The translations under genes were made by a program, and so were the position numbers. A model generated the notes under the pieces. That model was given only the letters and a program-made list of their open reading frames with translations. It was not told where the DNA came from and made no database searches. DNA of 64,000 bases from assembly GCF_000004075.3 (NCBI RefSeq), contig NC_026655.2, positions 1,116,001-1,180,000 on the forward strand, in the 5' to 3' direction. The stretch comes from Cucumis sativus. Its lineage: Eukaryota > Streptophyta > Magnoliopsida > Cucurbitales > Cucurbitaceae. Below are positions 31,250 through 54,318 of this stretch, piece after piece. Numbering within the stretch: the first letter of the stretch is position 1; each line of letters starts with the position of its first letter.

Positions 31250-34200
31250 TCAACCATAGTCTAATTTTTCCTTTCCACGACTCTGTACACCTTTGTATCT
31301 CTTGAAGCCAAGTTTGTTTCTTCTCCTGATTACCAATCTCAACAAAAAGAACCATTTTAGCACACCATATACCTTAGCCCATCTCATTTGAGCAACACAC
31401 GATGAGGAGCCACCTTGAAGAGTAGTTGTTGTCACTCGTGATTCTAAAATTGAGCTACATTGCACATCGGACTCTAGAACTTGCATATGATCCACGTCAA
31501 AGAAAGATGAGTGTAGTGGCTCGGAATCGCAGATCAGAGAAGAGTTGGCAAAATTTGGGGAACTTGGCATCGGATCATATCTTACAACCATAGAACCGAA
31601 ACTCTGCAAAGCATGATCGTCCAAGCCGCTAGGATTCCCAATAGAACCCATTGATGAAATTATGTCTGAAGAATAGGCATTTGATGGTGGGAAATCAAAG
31701 CCACTAAATTTTGGAGAAGACAAGTACTTGCTACCATAAGAATGGTCCTCCATGGGTGAGCTCGGGGTGTAAACAAAACTAAGTGGGTGAGAAGAGCCAC
31801 CTACAAGCAAAGTTTCATCATCAATGGAATCCACTTCGTCCCAGTGTTTGTATGCAGAGACAACCAAGTTGTGAGCATCAACCTGAGTACAGAATGAATG
31901 TACTGAATCAGCTGAAAAAATGTAAAGGAACTTAGAAGAATGATATATATATATACTTAGAGGTGACAGGAGATGAGTGCCTTTTCACTTTCAGATAGCT
32001 TATCTATGGGAACGTACTGGTAATCTGAAAGTAGCCCCATTACTCGTCCTACAACATCAAAAACCACTCCGCTTTTCTGTTCCAAATCATGAGGTTTGTA
32101 CACATAAATCTTCTTATCGAGCACACATGTTTGTGCATGCTCAATTATAGCTTCCCACATTTTGGTAGACATACCATGGCCAAGAATCTGGTTTTAAAAC
32201 CAAAAAAAAAAAATCTATAAGAAGTCATGATTTGCACAAAATTTAGATATATGATAAACGAGAAAAAGGTATATACATTGCGAAGCCTTGAAGGTTGTAC
32301 ATAAAGCTGAGTTAGGAAATCTTTCACCGTCTCGATTTTTTCTTGGCTCAGGCGCTTATGATAGGCTCCATCCTTGCTAATTTTCTGCAATCTCCATACT
32401 TCATCCTGCAGAGTTGGAGGATGGTGCTTCTTGTACACTGAACCAAATGGCAGATGTCAATTCTTTTTCTAATATGTCAGACCAGAAAGATACAATATAT
32501 ATGCATGTACATATGCCTCCACAAACCAAAGGATGGGAGATAATATATTGAGAGTGAACTCCAGTGTTTTGTATTTAAATGAAGCATATTCCTTAATGGC
32601 GTCAAAGTCAGTGTTAAAAAGTGGTCCATCAAGATTTAAAACTGCTCTCAATTCTTCAAAAACGTATCCACGAGATATTACACATAGTATAGGTTAATCG
32701 TATCACAAGCTTCACATGATAGAAGCTTCCAAATAGCCAGTATCATATTTCAAGCTCCAGTTTGCAATTTATAAGTTCAGTTGACAACCTAATTCAATAC
32801 AATAAGCAACAAAAGATAAATAACAGCCAAGCAGAAGTTTTGAAGCCGTTGGGCCAAAAAAAATTCATAATGCATAATTTGATTTTATACAGACTTCATG
32901 ACGAACATCTAGAGAACAAATGGCAGAGTTTGATTATTAAAGAAAACTGTATTGAAGTTTGACAGCAGTGTTCCATTCTCCTCATAAGAAAGGAACTATA
33001 CTCGGAATAATTTGATGCAATCAGTACCAAACTTAATATTTTGCAATGACGTACTGATCTTTCATTTTAACAATGTGTAAATTCAAATAATAAACCTAAT
33101 TACTCACATTCTCCACGGTGATCTCTGACAACAAATGACGCAGTCTTTGCTTCAAGAATTCTTGTTCCATCATTGTCGTCTATAATTCTTGCACCGAGCC
33201 TGAACCGACGACTTCTAGTCCAGCTTGAATTGTCAGTGAAAGAAATCTCACCTACCGAACCAATCCCATCTTTGAGACTCACAAGTGTCTCTCCTGTTAG
33301 AAGGGGTTTCTTTCCTTCCCTCTCTCTTACAATGTTATTCCTAAACTCCTCTGCGGTGTAATTATCACCTCCACCCTCAAAATCACCCTCAAGCACTACA
33401 ATTTCCACCTTGGCAGAGGATTGAGGCCCAGCGCCAACAACTTCCCCAGTTAAGGTGTCAACCAAAGCCACCATCAAATTGGAACTCTCTCTTCCTTCAA
33501 TGCGAGATCCAGTAAATACCGGGAGAAAAATATCAGTTATGAACTTCAATTGAAAGCATCTCGGCCCAGAAGAATAGTTTTCTTTCGCGTCATTCCCATC
33601 ATTCCTTAACATAAATGCACATATTTCATCAACACTCTAATATATCTCATCCATACATAGATCTTTTGGGTTTAACAATTTATGATCTAATGTCACTTCT
33701 TCTCTACTTCTAATTGTAGAAGTGGGGGCAGTAAATGTACATGAAAGCATAAAAAGTACTACCTTTGCACATTGGTAATGTACTTTCCTAGTGCCAATTC
33801 AACCTCCTCCCTCACCTGTCCAGCACACAATTAGCAAAGCTTACATCAAATTTTCAAACTTGCAACTCAAGGAATAGAACCGTTAATTCATCTATTAAAC
33901 CATAAATATACTTTTTGATTAATTTTCTTTTTTTTTTTTTACAGAATCAATACGTATAATACTGTAAGAAATCAGAACTGTTGAGTTGATGCAATTTGCC
34001 TATCCCATTAATTAACTATAAAATGTTTGTCTTCATTTCAAGTTTCCCATGAAGTAGCCATTTATACCTTGCCAATCCAAATAGTTCTTCCCCACCCTTA
34101 TAACAGAAGTATTCAATATTCAAGAACTGTAGGAGAACTAAGTAAGATCCCAAAGCTGAGACCACAACCTAGGCCTGAAGAGAGAAATAAGCAAGTAGCA

Positions 34201-45521: not shown

Positions 45522-47524
45522 GTATGGAAGTAGTGTATGGAGGGGATAAGAATTCCGGGAAGAAGAAACGAATCGAATCGAATGGAATCAATGGCGCTTG
45601 GGGATCTGAACCGAATCTTGACTCAAATCAAAGACGCCCATGGAAACTTTGTTGTTGTTGTGTATTGAATCATTGAATAATTTGGTTATTAATTTCCCAA
45701 AAGAGATGAGTGCGAAAAAACAAATCTTCCAATTAAACATAAATATAATATGATGATAATAATAAGATAGGAGTATATATATTCATTCATTCCTTTTAAA
45801 TTGCATTTCTTCAAACTTGATGGGTAATTTGGGAAAGACTTTTATAATTAGTCATTTCACAAATATAACAAATCAACAAAATATTTATATAAATAATGTT
45901 GTAGACGAAAAAAAACAATTCATGATTAACTATGTCCAACGAAAAAAAGACGATGAAACAAAAAATATAGAAGAAAAAAAAAGATGTCAGAGGATAATAG
46001 ATAAAAACAATAATAATAAAGGGCAAACTCATAATTTTTTAGATGGTAAATTTAATAGACTTTTTCATTTTCTTATGAGCATCGTGAAATAATTTGATCG
46101 TATCAAAGTTAACCGTTATATATATTATCTTGGATAGGTGGCCTTGTTCCATTTACAAATCTAAATATTAGATAGTTGCAAATTTAATAATTAAATTCAA
46201 AATAATTAACTATAAGCAACGTTTTAAAACATTTGTAAATATAGCAAAATTTGTCAAATTTTATCAATGATAAAAGTCTATCACTAATAGACTATGTTGT
46301 AAATATTTGTCTATCACCAATAGACCATAGGAGTCTATCAACGATACAAATCAATCCGTGATAGTTTTGCTATATTTATAACTTTTAAAATGTAAATTAT
46401 ATTTCTCAAATGACCATTCATTACAATTATCTTTAAATATTTTGTTTATATTTTTTTAGAACACCTCTTTAATTAAATAATTTATTTATAAATTTGATTC
46501 TATTGGTTATATTGAAATAACTTAATAAGTTGTAATAAAATAGAGTGATCGCTCTCGAACTCAAATAATTTTATACACTGTCTCAACAAATATTTGAATT
46601 TTTGTACATTCTCGTTGAAGCATATCTTCTTAGTTTTTATGTTGTACTTTATGTGTGTAAGATGCATATAGTGCAACATTACATGACGTGAATTTAAACA
46701 TTTGATATTTTAATTGATAGATTATGATTTTTATGTTAAGAAAACAACTATAATTTTTATCCCAACAAATCAATGCCATGTAACGTTGCATGCCATAAAA
46801 ATGTATAAAAAAAAATCAAACAAGAGGATAGGTAATACAATTGTGATTTTATCCTATTAGAATATAAAATATAGTAAAGATTATTCTATTTCAAAACAAC
46901 CTTTAAAAAGTTAATCAATTAATATCCACCTATACACAAATATGTATAGAGTGCTTTTAACTTAAATTACATAGGTTACACGATAGCATTGCGTATATTC
47001 ATAAAAACTAAATAGTAAATATGAATTTGATTTTGAAATTTTGAAATATATAAATTAAAATTTCAAATTCGAAATTAAGATATATATACTTCAACAAAAA
47101 TTTAAAAAGTTAAAATCTACTCCTTCCTAACAAAATATATAGTAAATCAAAACAAATATTAGAAAATGAGTAATTTGTTTCACTAATTACTACACACCAC
47201 TAATTACCATTCCATAAACCTTTCCCCATCCAACCACTTGTCATCTTTTACACAAAATAATCCATAGTAATTGCTTTGATTCAGTCATCAATGGAAGTTC
47301 GAGGACATCACCATTTTCCGCCATTACCAATCTCCTACAACTTCTCCCATCCACAACCCCACCTCCATTTCCCACCCTTTTTCATCCCCCCCCATCTCCA
47401 TCTTCCCCAATCCGTCATTGTCTTACTTCTCATTCCTTCTGATCATCAAACACTCCACAAACCTTTTCTCCACTGTTCCGGCACCGAGGAAGCAGGTTTT
47501 CCACCACCTCCTTCCTCTTCCGCC
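45522..47524. other. Mannosidase promoter, AT-rich spacer and peroxidase leader
   Basis: 45522-45700 is the upstream region of the mannosidase gene. 45750-47200 is AT-rich and contains the MITE-like repeat 46222-46392. From an ATG at 47291 to 47524 the sequence is open in frame with the peroxidase and rich in Pro, His and Phe codons. This is probably a pyrimidine-rich leader rather than part of the protein. Confidence 0.5.
46222..46392. mobile_element. MITE-like dispersed repeat with inverted ends
   Basis: About 170 bp. The left end has 'catttgtaaatatagcaaaa' (46230-46249) and the right end has 'ttttgctatatttataac' followed by 'ttttaaaatg', an imperfect inverted match. Between them lie palindrome-prone 'tctatcactaatagac', 'tctatcaccaatagac' and 'gagtctatcaacgata' units. 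Related but diverged pieces occur near 8195-8350, 10025-10210, 38861-38940 and 50980-51085. Confidence 0.6.
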
Positions 47525-48520
47525 ATGGCTTCCTTTCCTCCTCCCGCTTCCCTTTTCGTAATTATCCTCTTCGCCGTTCCCTTCTTAGTTGAATCCCAGC
47601 TTTCTCTTGACTATTACCAGAAAACTTGCCCCGATTTTGCTAAGATCGTCCATGAAACCGTCTCTAAGAAGCTTGCTACTAGCCCAACCGCCGCCGCCGC
47701 CACCATGCGTCTCTTGAGCAACGATTGCTTAGTGGGAGGCTGTGATGGCTCTCTTCTCATTGCCTCAAACGCCTTCAACCACGCCGAACGCGATGCGGAA
47801 ATCAACCTCTCTCTTCCAGGAGACGCATTCGATGTCGTCGCTCGAACGAAGGTCACTTTAGAGCTTTCCTGCCCAGGGATCGTCTCTTGCTCCGACGTAT
47901 TAGCACAAGCGACTCGCGATCTCATCGCGATTACAGGCGGACCGTCGTACAATGTTCCATTAGGGCGAGAAGATAGTTTGGTATCAAAATCATCCGAAGT
48001 AGAAGGAAACATTCCGAAGATGAATCAAACAATTGACGAGTTGATCAAACTATACACAGCGAAAGGATTCACAATTCAAGAAATGGTAGCGTTATACGGT
48101 GGAAGAACAATCGGATTCTCAAATTGCAAGGAGTTCGGAGACCGAATCTTCAAATTCAGTAAATCAACACCAACAGATCCAGAGATCCATCCGAAGTTCG
48201 CAGAGGCTTTGAAGAAGAGCTGTGAAGGATATGAGAAGAATCCAGGAATGTCAGCGTACAGCGACGTCGTAACGCCGGGGAAATTCGACAATGTGTACTT
48301 CCAGAATCTGTTGAAAGGACTGGGATTATCGGCGTCGGAACATGCGATGGTGAAGGACGCAAGGACGAGGAAATTTGTGGAGATGTACGCCGGAAACCAA
48401 GCGTTGTTCTTCAAGGATTTCAGTAGCGCCATGGAGAAGTTGAGTGTTCGTGAAGTGAAAACTGGTGGGAAAGGAGAAGTGAGGAGGAAATGCGATGTGT
48501 TCAATTCAATTCAAACTTGA
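47525..48520 (+). CDS. Class III peroxidase homologue lacking both catalytic histidines
   Basis: A single exon of 331 residues, the intronless type related to Arabidopsis PER31/41/63/65. The chosen start is the ATG in 'gccatgg', giving the signal peptide 'MASFPPPASLFVIILFAVPF' with likely cleavage before 'QLSLDYYQKTCPDF'. All eight cysteines remain (C35, C68, C73, C116, C122, C201, C233, C323), as do Arg62 and most distal Ca2+ ligands (D67, G72, D74, S76). The distal 'FFHDC' reads 'LSNDC', so the acid-base His is Asn66. The proximal 'GGHTIGFSHC' reads 'GGRTIGFSNC', so the haem-ligand His is Arg194. Normal peroxidase catalysis is therefore unlikely. The frame is fully open with good family identity, which argues for a retained secreted or cell-wall pseudo-enzyme over a simple pseudogene. 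Confidence 0.92.
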   Translation: MASFPPPASLFVIILFAVPFLVESQLSLDYYQKTCPDFAKIVHETVSKKLATSPTAAAATMRLLSNDCLVGGCDGSLLIASNAFNHAERDAEINLSLPGDAFDVVARTKVTLELSCPGIVSCSDVLAQATRDLIAITGGPSYNVPLGREDSLVSKSSEVEGNIPKMNQTIDELIKLYTAKGFTIQEMVALYGGRTIGFSNCKEFGDRIFKFSKSTPTDPEIHPKFAEALKKSCEGYEKNPGMSAYSDVVTPGKFDNVYFQNLLKGLGLSASEHAMVKDARTRKFVEMYAGNQALFFKDFSSAMEKLSVREVKTGGKGEVRRKCDVFNSIQT

Positions 48521-52707: not shown

Positions 52708-54318
52708 ATGGGTGGCAATGGCAAATCCCGGTGGAAGTTCCTCTTCCCCCACCGTCGTAATTCTAGGCTTCAATCCAACGATCCTCCTAAAGAGTTCCTT
52801 TGTCCTGTTTCTGGTTCGTTAATGGCAGACCCTGTTGTCGTTTCTACTGGACAGACGTTTGACCGTGTTTCTGCTCAGGTTTGTAGAAATTTAGGGTTCT
52901 CCCCTGTGTTAGATGATGGTTCTAAGCCTGATTTCACTACTGTGATTCCTAATTTAGCTATGAAGAAGACAATTCTTCATTGGTGTGAGAAGTCTGGTGC
53001 TCGGAATCTTCAGCCTCCTAATTACACCTCCGTTGAAAGCCTTGTTTCTGCATTGATGGAGAAGGAGAAGCCTCAAGGCGGGATTGGGGATTCCTCGGAT
53101 AGGGATTTGTTAGAGGGGGTATCGGATTTGCCGGCAGTGGATTTCTCGCACGCTGCGACGGAGTATGGACACCGTCCTGAACGGTTTTACACCAGCTCGT
53201 CGGAGGAATCAGTCGTCGTTGGGGGAAGCCCGGGACCGTTCACGACTCGACCTGCGTGTTATTACTCATTTTCGTCTTCTTCGTCTGAAACCGTGGAAAA
53301 CGAAGCGCTCGTACAAACCCTAGGCCCGAATTCATCGATTTCCGAGGATGAGAAGAATATTTTAACGAAGCTCGAGAGTTCCGATGTGTTTCAGCAAGAA
53401 GAAGGCGTTGTTTCGCTGAGAAAAATCACGAAAGCCGATGAGAATATTAGGGTTTCTCTTTGTACGCCTCGGATTCTTTCCTCTCTCCACCGGTTGATAA
53501 AGTCGAGATACCCCAAAGTACAGATCAACGCCGTCGCCTCTCTTGTAAATCTCTCCCTCGAAAAGCCGAACAAATTAAAGATCGCGCGGTCAGGATTGGT
53601 TCCAGACTTAATCGATGTGCTTAAAGGAGGTCATTCCGAAGCTCAAGAACACGCCGCCGGAGCGCTCTTCAGCCTAGCTTTAGAGGATGACAATCGGATG
53701 ACGATCGGAGTTCTCGGCGCGCTACCGCCACTCCTGTACGCACTCCGATCGGAAAGCGAGCGAACTCGAGACGATTCAGCTCTGTGTCTCTACAACCTAA
53801 CAATGATTCAGAGCAACCGAGTGAAGCTTGTGAAACTCGGCGCCGTAACGACTCTACTTTCCATGGTGAAATCAAGAAACTCAACGAATCGACTGCTATT
53901 AATCCTCTGTAACATGGCCGTGTGCCAGGAGGGAAGGTCCGCAATGCTAGACGCCAACGCCGTCGAGCTTTTGGTCGGAATGCTGAGGGAGAAAGAGCTG
54001 AACTCCGAATCAACCCGCGAGAACTGCGTTGCGGCATTGTACGCACTTAGCTATGGAAGCATGAGATTCAAAGGATTAGCGAAGGAAGCTGGAGCAATGG
54101 AGGTTTTGAGGGAGATTGTCGAGAGTGGAAGCGAGAGGGCGAGAGAGAAAGCAAAGAAGATACTGGAGAGAATGAGAACGAGAGGGACATACGGTGAAGA
54201 CGACGACGACGACGATCCCGACGGCGAGTCGAGTTTTGAGAGAGGTGGACTCAGTTCGACTCGGTACCCAATCGGTGGTGCAAGATTTCCCAGCTCAGCC
54301 AATACGATGCCGTTTTAA
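52708..54318 (+). CDS. PUB38: U-box/armadillo E3 ubiquitin ligase (PUB38-like)
   Basis: A single exon of 536 residues. The start is the ATG giving 'MGGNGKSRWKFLFPHRRNSR'; the frame is open a little further upstream but only through non-ATG codons. The U-box spans about residues 26-100 ('PPKEFLCPVSGSLMADPVVV', 'GQTFDR', 'VIPNLAMKKTILHWC'). A Ser/Glu-rich linker follows. Armadillo-type repeats cover about residues 215-490 ('INAVASLVNLSLEKPNKLKI', 'AQEHAAGALFSLALEDDNRM', 'LCLYNLTMIQSNRVKLVKLG', 'ENCVAALYALSYG'). A poly-Asp patch lies near the C-terminus. Such proteins pass ubiquitin from an E2 to targets bound by the ARM domain. The layout, intronless structure and 'MG.NG..RWKF' N-terminus point to the PUB38/39/40 group. 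An inverted W-box pair lies upstream. Confidence 0.92.
   Translation: MGGNGKSRWKFLFPHRRNSRLQSNDPPKEFLCPVSGSLMADPVVVSTGQTFDRVSAQVCRNLGFSPVLDDGSKPDFTTVIPNLAMKKTILHWCEKSGARNLQPPNYTSVESLVSALMEKEKPQGGIGDSSDRDLLEGVSDLPAVDFSHAATEYGHRPERFYTSSSEESVVVGGSPGPFTTRPACYYSFSSSSSETVENEALVQTLGPNSSISEDEKNILTKLESSDVFQQEEGVVSLRKITKADENIRVSLCTPRILSSLHRLIKSRYPKVQINAVASLVNLSLEKPNKLKIARSGLVPDLIDVLKGGHSEAQEHAAGALFSLALEDDNRMTIGVLGALPPLLYALRSESERTRDDSALCLYNLTMIQSNRVKLVKLGAVTTLLSMVKSRNSTNRLLLILCNMAVCQEGRSAMLDANAVELLVGMLREKELNSESTRENCVAALYALSYGSMRFKGLAKEAGAMEVLREIVESGSERAREKAKKILERMRTRGTYGEDDDDDDPDGESSFERGGLSSTRYPIGGARFPSSANTMPF

Follow-up and report, generated by a model that had tools for sequence, protein, structure and literature searches.

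CsPRX1, a class III peroxidase of cucumber, has lost both histidines of the haem site as well as the proximal Asp and the distal Phe, and most of its changes at otherwise fixed positions fall in the haem pocket. Judged by its sequence and those of its paralogues, CsPRX1 would be a maintained haem-free pseudo-peroxidase, in which haem binding and enzymatic activity were abandoned long ago and which selection has since preserved in a non-catalytic form; we put the probability of this reading at about 0.68. A maintained pseudo-enzyme had been proposed in an earlier note on this DNA, and on the evidence of cucumber paralogues alone the proposal was strengthened by the rejection of neutral evolution (LRT 19.7), the lack of a long neutral phase, the old loss of the pocket, and a level of non-pocket change similar to that of the paralogue CsPRX2.

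Identity and reading frame of CsPRX1

Coordinates refer to the window, i.e., the whole 64-kb stretch of cucumber DNA that was analyzed. The CsPRX1 coding sequence (47525..48520, + strand) comprises 331 codons without interruption and specifies 331 amino acids (aa) with the class III peroxidase fold minus the haem-site residues. Its product matched PF00141 in Pfam with 227 bits over residues 42-291, while an NCBIfam search of the protein returned no family, and its best PDB kin by sequence were the barley grain, royal palm, banyan, and other plant secretory peroxidases. We presume that it belongs to the PER31/41/63/65-like subfamily, a label also given in the earlier note.

The gene was identified as CsPRX1 (CsaV3_1G001790.1) by matching computed properties of a 409-aa model to a published survey that lists 60 class III peroxidases in cucumber and is cited here in part (PMC11507654). 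Read as 409 aa, the protein has a pI of 6.57, an instability index of 36.19, and a GRAVY of -0.106, the values printed for CsPRX1, and a computed mass of 44,781.9 versus 44,782.4 Da in print. A mass offset of ~0.4-0.5 recurs in the three paralogues named by the same property matching, CsPRX2 (332 aa), CsPRX18 (326 aa), and CsPRX37 (319 aa).

The full-length open frame described earlier held for all 331 codons but not as the limit of the frame, which stays open upstream of 47525 to an ATG at 47291, the start of CsPRX1 in the cited part of the survey. This in-frame extension (47291..47524, +) forms part of the 409-aa model and contains no Pfam family. We prefer the 331-aa start, since it is homologous to the CsPRX2 start and puts a hydrophobic leader at the N terminus. 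The published start, 78 codons upstream of the homologous one, is thus likely a start-codon misannotation that buries the leader, and 47291..47524 is probably 5′ untranslated. On inspection by eye, the N terminus is hydrophobic, with homology to the start of CsPRX2, and the sequence was read as a predicted signal peptide (47525..47596, +), with the mature protein probably beginning at Gln25 (QLSLDYY). The leader as read by eye, together with what is known of the family, would place CsPRX1 in the apoplast or cell wall; the longer published model was placed in the endoplasmic reticulum (PMC11507654).

In its cited parts, the same survey states that CsPRX1 and CsPRX37 are intronless and that most CsPRX genes have both untranslated regions, with four named exceptions that do not include CsPRX1, a weak hint of transcript support; these parts give no expression value for CsPRX1 (PMC11507654). 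The loss of the histidines appears to be undiscussed there, since the word histidine occurs once in the main text, in the introduction. In the literature searched, no other open-access paper carried the gene identifier.

Elsewhere in the window, an uninterrupted U-box/armadillo-repeat frame of the plant U-box E3 ligase type (PF04564, PF00514) lies downstream of CsPRX1 at 52708-54318 (+), and an exon of a calmodulin-binding protein-like gene (PF07887, 193 bits) lies at 33100-33612 (-). Scans of the 64-kb window for tRNAs, Rfam families, and tandem repeats returned nothing relevant.

Replacement of haem-site residues

Paralogues for comparison were drawn from the cucumber genome (226.6 Mb, 88 contigs). 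Gene models were built from 40 of 64 chosen regions and from the first loci; the 24 regions outside this set lie mostly on contigs C6 and C7, and three of their genes were included (L005, L006, and L008). Of the 60 gene candidates obtained by chaining, 51 were full and 9 partial; 4 of the 51 failed to splice, which left 47 models; two poor models and one exact duplicate were removed, and three were swapped for hand-checked forms. The resulting 44 peroxidases, aligned with CsPRX1, are automatic models, some of them near-copies of one another. For residue numbering, an HRP sequence identical to PDB 1h55 over 308/308 residues was aligned to CsPRX1.

On the distal side, Ser65 (AGC, 47717..47719, +) stands in place of the distal Phe (HRP Phe41), a column at which 42 of 43 aligned paralogue models have Phe and one has Leu, and Asn66 (AAC, 47720..47722, +) replaces the distal catalytic His (HRP His42), which is found in all 43 models that align there, one being gapped. 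On the proximal side, the haem-ligating His (HRP His170), present in 44/44 models, is replaced by Arg194 (AGA, 48104..48106, +), and Glu272 (48338..48340, +) replaces an Asp that is likewise universal among the 44 (HRP Asp247), which we take to be the hydrogen-bond partner of the proximal His. The Ser-Asn and Arg substitutions had been reported in the earlier note, and their codons were found as described. Four changes come in addition to those on its list, namely, Asp272Glu, Phe177Tyr, Ser191Tyr, and Leu269Ser. Tyr177 (48053..48055, +) stands for a Phe (HRP Phe152) kept in 43 of 44 models, the remaining one having Tyr; Tyr191 (48095..48097, +), three residues ahead of the proximal ligand position, stands for Ser (HRP Ser167; 40 Ser and 4 Leu among 44 models); and Ser269 (48329..48331, +) occupies a column that is Leu in 34 models and Phe in 10 (HRP Ile244).

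An exon-level census of loci gave a similar picture. At the distal site, 57 of 62 rows carried His, 4 carried Phe, and 1, that of CsPRX1, carried Asn; at the proximal site, 61 of 80 rows carried His, some rows repeating one gene. The other non-His rows were interpreted either as frames that cross an intron boundary or as an additional frame within one exon. The sole other departure at the distal Phe column, among the 43 models aligned, is CsPRX18 (L002, G000:C3:34204302-34208231), which has Leu (FLHDC).

Both histidines are required for the chemistry that defines class III enzymes, and CsPRX1 has neither (Asn66, Arg194). The role of His170 as the haem ligand is supported by the part of an HRP review that was consulted.

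Retention of the peroxidase scaffold

The remainder of the class III framework is in place. CsPRX1 retains all eight family cysteines (Cys 35, 68, 73, 116, 122, 201, 233, and 323), the distal Arg (Arg62, HRP Arg38; 47708..47710, +, from the paralogue and HRP alignment), and Glu88 and Asn94 (HRP Glu64 and Asn70). At ten aligned positions, which we took to be the HRP Ca2+ ligands, it is identical to CsPRX2 (10/10), a comparison of sequences only. These results bore out the earlier statement that the disulfide cysteines, the distal Arg, and most Ca2+ ligands persist. By descent, CsPRX1 is class III: it matches PF00141, its closest kin are class III, and the eight cysteines of the four disulfides and the Ca2+ positions are all present.

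Changes at conserved sites concentrate in the haem pocket

At 43 columns conserved in ≥95% of the sequences, CsPRX1 departs at seven (F65S, H66N, I125V, F177Y, H194R, D272E, and L275M), the largest number among the 45 aligned genes, the next worst having 3 and the median being 0. With 27 positions that we assumed to be haem-lining, these changes affected 5 of 8 near-invariant haem-lining columns versus 2 of 33 others in CsPRX1, compared with 0/7 and 0/33 in CsPRX2, and the two outside the pocket (I125V and L275M) are mild. For five catalytic residues (HRP Arg38, Phe41, His42, His170, and Asp247), 4/5 were changed versus 3/38 of the rest (Fisher P = 0.0013), and 3/4 versus 4/39 if Asp247 is left out (P = 0.010), where the haem-lining and catalytic sets were named after the changes had been seen and the residue roles were assigned from family knowledge. 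Over all conservation levels, haem-lining sites showed no enrichment (11/24 versus 79/235, P = 0.26). The enrichment of change is confined to conserved haem-lining sites.

Outside the pocket, 3/32 columns of 80-95% conservation were changed in both CsPRX1 and CsPRX2; at 50-80% conservation, 21/64 were changed in CsPRX1 and 16/61 in CsPRX2, and below 50%, 53/106 and 52/109, respectively. Since these tier counts are similar, the non-pocket constraint profile of CsPRX1 resembles that of a canonical peroxidase. When only lineage-specific changes were counted, a stricter measure, CsPRX1 had 30 versus 17 in CsPRX2 (P = 0.079), and those of CsPRX1 were spread nearly flat over the conservation tiers (6/40, 2/29, 8/61, and 14/81).

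Descent, intron history, and selection

In a tree of the 45 cucumber peroxidases, CsPRX1 and CsPRX2 formed a clade (support 100/96), which CsPRX18 and CsPRX37 joined (100/99). CsPRX2, at 61-63% identity, is the nearest paralogue of CsPRX1, with end branches of 0.42 for CsPRX1 and 0.27 for CsPRX2. The coding frames of CsPRX18 and CsPRX37 are uninterrupted, like that of CsPRX1. The only intron of CsPRX2 (L004, G000:C1:5206585-5210196) interrupts the gene at residue 129 in phase 0; it lies eight codons away from the common 137/0 site and coincides with none of the common cucumber peroxidase sites (72/0, 137/0, and 192/1); its three clade mates being uninterrupted, this intron is likely a gain or a shift. 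Given the uninterrupted CsPRX18 and CsPRX37 and the 129/0 position in CsPRX2, the four-gene clade was probably without the common introns before CsPRX1 arose. For the same reasons, an origin of CsPRX1 as a recent retrocopy of CsPRX2 was not favored.

Selection was examined with a codon model of 8 genes and 293 codons, all from cucumber paralogues. The dN/dS check that had been proposed gave an omega of 0.058 on the CsPRX1 branch versus 0.068 elsewhere, and omega = 1 was rejected (LRT 19.7). With both sister branches free, omega was 0.064 for CsPRX1 and 0.035 for CsPRX2, so that CsPRX1 may be somewhat less constrained than CsPRX2. Because synonymous sites were saturated and the branch omega averages over a long time, the CsPRX1 branch was modeled as a stretch under constraint followed by a neutral one. 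The best-fitting length of the neutral phase was 0, and its upper 95% limit was ~0.18 substitutions per codon by interpolation, or 0.115 with stops penalized; this two-phase model is compatible with neutral evolution over the last few million years.

The pocket codons gave a different figure. Conditional on loss, F65, H66, H194, and D272 were best fitted by 4 to 6 neutral substitutions per codon, a range at the upper end of the grid; the lower limit was ~0.9-1.0, and a value of 0.12 lay 7.3 to 7.6 log units below the best. The changes from CAC/CAT to AGA and from TTC to AGC take three and two bases, respectively, and at least 7 base changes are needed over the four codons. Substitution rates are of the order of ~7 × 10−9 per site and year, at which the two limits correspond roughly to 5-9 million years for the neutral phase and >40 million years for the pocket. 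Since the limits do not meet, constraint on the pocket was lifted well ahead of any neutral phase of CsPRX1 as a whole. The pocket loss would be younger than estimated if several bases mutated in single events or if the new residues were selected for; such selection would itself imply function.

Alternative interpretations

CsPRX1 might instead be a young pseudogene or a gene under recently relaxed constraint, i.e., a redundant duplicate whose pocket was struck by chance and in which stops are yet to come. It has accumulated more lineage-specific changes than CsPRX2 (30 versus 17, P = 0.079) and lost more near-invariant columns (7/43) than any other of the 45 aligned genes, and a final neutral phase of up to ~0.12-0.18 substitutions per codon fits the data. 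We nevertheless consider this unlikely, as the frame is open and the cysteines are intact, omega = 1 is rejected on the branch, and change outside the pocket is like that of CsPRX2, while the pocket codons are too changed for so short a phase (7.3 to 7.6 log units below the best at 0.12 substitutions per codon). An artifact of assembly or sequencing affecting an otherwise normal peroxidase, which we regard as hardly credible, would have to account for at least 7 base changes over four codons that are all sense and involve no frameshift, and a simple read error is unlikely with Ser65 two bases from TTC and Arg194 three from CAC/CAT; it is true that one assembly was read and that the published CsPRX1 model, which agrees, may share that assembly.

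Haem might also have been kept through a ligand switch, with a Tyr191 tyrosinate, partnered by Arg194, on the iron and Asn66 as the distal residue, giving a catalase-like or haem-carrier wall protein. Monofunctional catalases combine a proximal Tyr-Arg with a distal Asn; the Tyr191 column is Ser or Leu in 44/44 paralogue models, and Arg194 and Asn66 co-occur with the new Tyr. This arrangement is very improbable, however, because residue 191 is not known to come within reach of the iron, and because the absence of the distal Phe and Leu269, together with the Asp-to-Glu exchange, suggests a pocket that has decayed or been filled. A single-sequence AlphaFold2 model of CsPRX1 (mean pLDDT 37.3) was too poor for use on this point.

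If CsPRX1 is a maintained haem-free protein, as we favor, Arg194 would occupy the proximal iron site, perhaps forming a salt bridge with Glu272 in place of the His-Asp pair, so that no iron would be coordinated and no peroxide cleaved, and the four disulfides and two Ca2+ sites would hold the fold without haem. Tentatively, such a protein might serve in the wall as a scaffold, or might restrain cross-linking, by taking up the docking sites or partners that active peroxidases use (pectin, extensin, or other wall partners).

Relation to known peroxidases

With class III peroxidases of the HRP type, CsPRX1 shares the fold family, a predicted leader, eight cysteines, Ca2+ positions, distal Arg, and Glu88/Asn94, and it differs from them in the replacement of both histidines, the distal Phe, and the proximal Asp. 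The nearest precedent lies in class I. APX-L/TL29 has no Ca2+/disulfide scaffold. According to the cited part of PMC8069737, it is a plant peroxidase relative without catalytic residues that binds no haem and is maintained, its knockouts have phenotypes, and most angiosperm APX-L proteins have Leu-Asn at positions 41-42, comparable to Ser-Asn in CsPRX1. In contrast to CsPRX1, these proteins are class I and reside in the thylakoid lumen; by definition Arg38, position 41, His42, His163, and Arg172 are all replaced, so that the distal Arg is lost too; and their proximal His was lost mainly via small deletions rather than by a substitution such as that to Arg194 (PMC8069737, in part). CsPRX1 itself falls outside APX-L/TL29, being class III by tree and cysteines and having kept Arg62; by analogy, it is best read as the class III counterpart of this class I group.

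The C-terminal domain of KatG is a more distant parallel. It is fused and ancient and is no free secreted protein. In the cited part of PMC4232752, it is a peroxidase-family domain without a prosthetic group beside a haem domain, and peroxidase-like domains lacking both histidines appear in a figure devoted to ascorbate peroxidase-like proteins. Judged by title and the start of the abstract, none of the open-access literature matches listed described a class III member without both histidines, and the parts consulted of the watermelon, waterlogging, melon, and human-haemoprotein papers and of the HRP review contained nothing on CsPRX1. As expected, searches for CsPRX1 kin gave 12 pattern matches in prokaryotic genome contigs, none of them confirmed, and no match in viral contigs.

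Implications for the class III family

Class III peroxidases number dozens per plant genome and are usually presumed active from family membership. CsPRX1 is already in print as an ordinary family member, its missing histidines being passed over in the text examined (PMC11507654, in part), and it is a warning against inferring activity from motif scans. If CsPRX1 is indeed a maintained haem-free member, part of the class III family would work without catalysis, in parallel to APX-L in class I, and the gene would provide a naturally occurring case in which functions of wall peroxidases other than catalysis could be tested.
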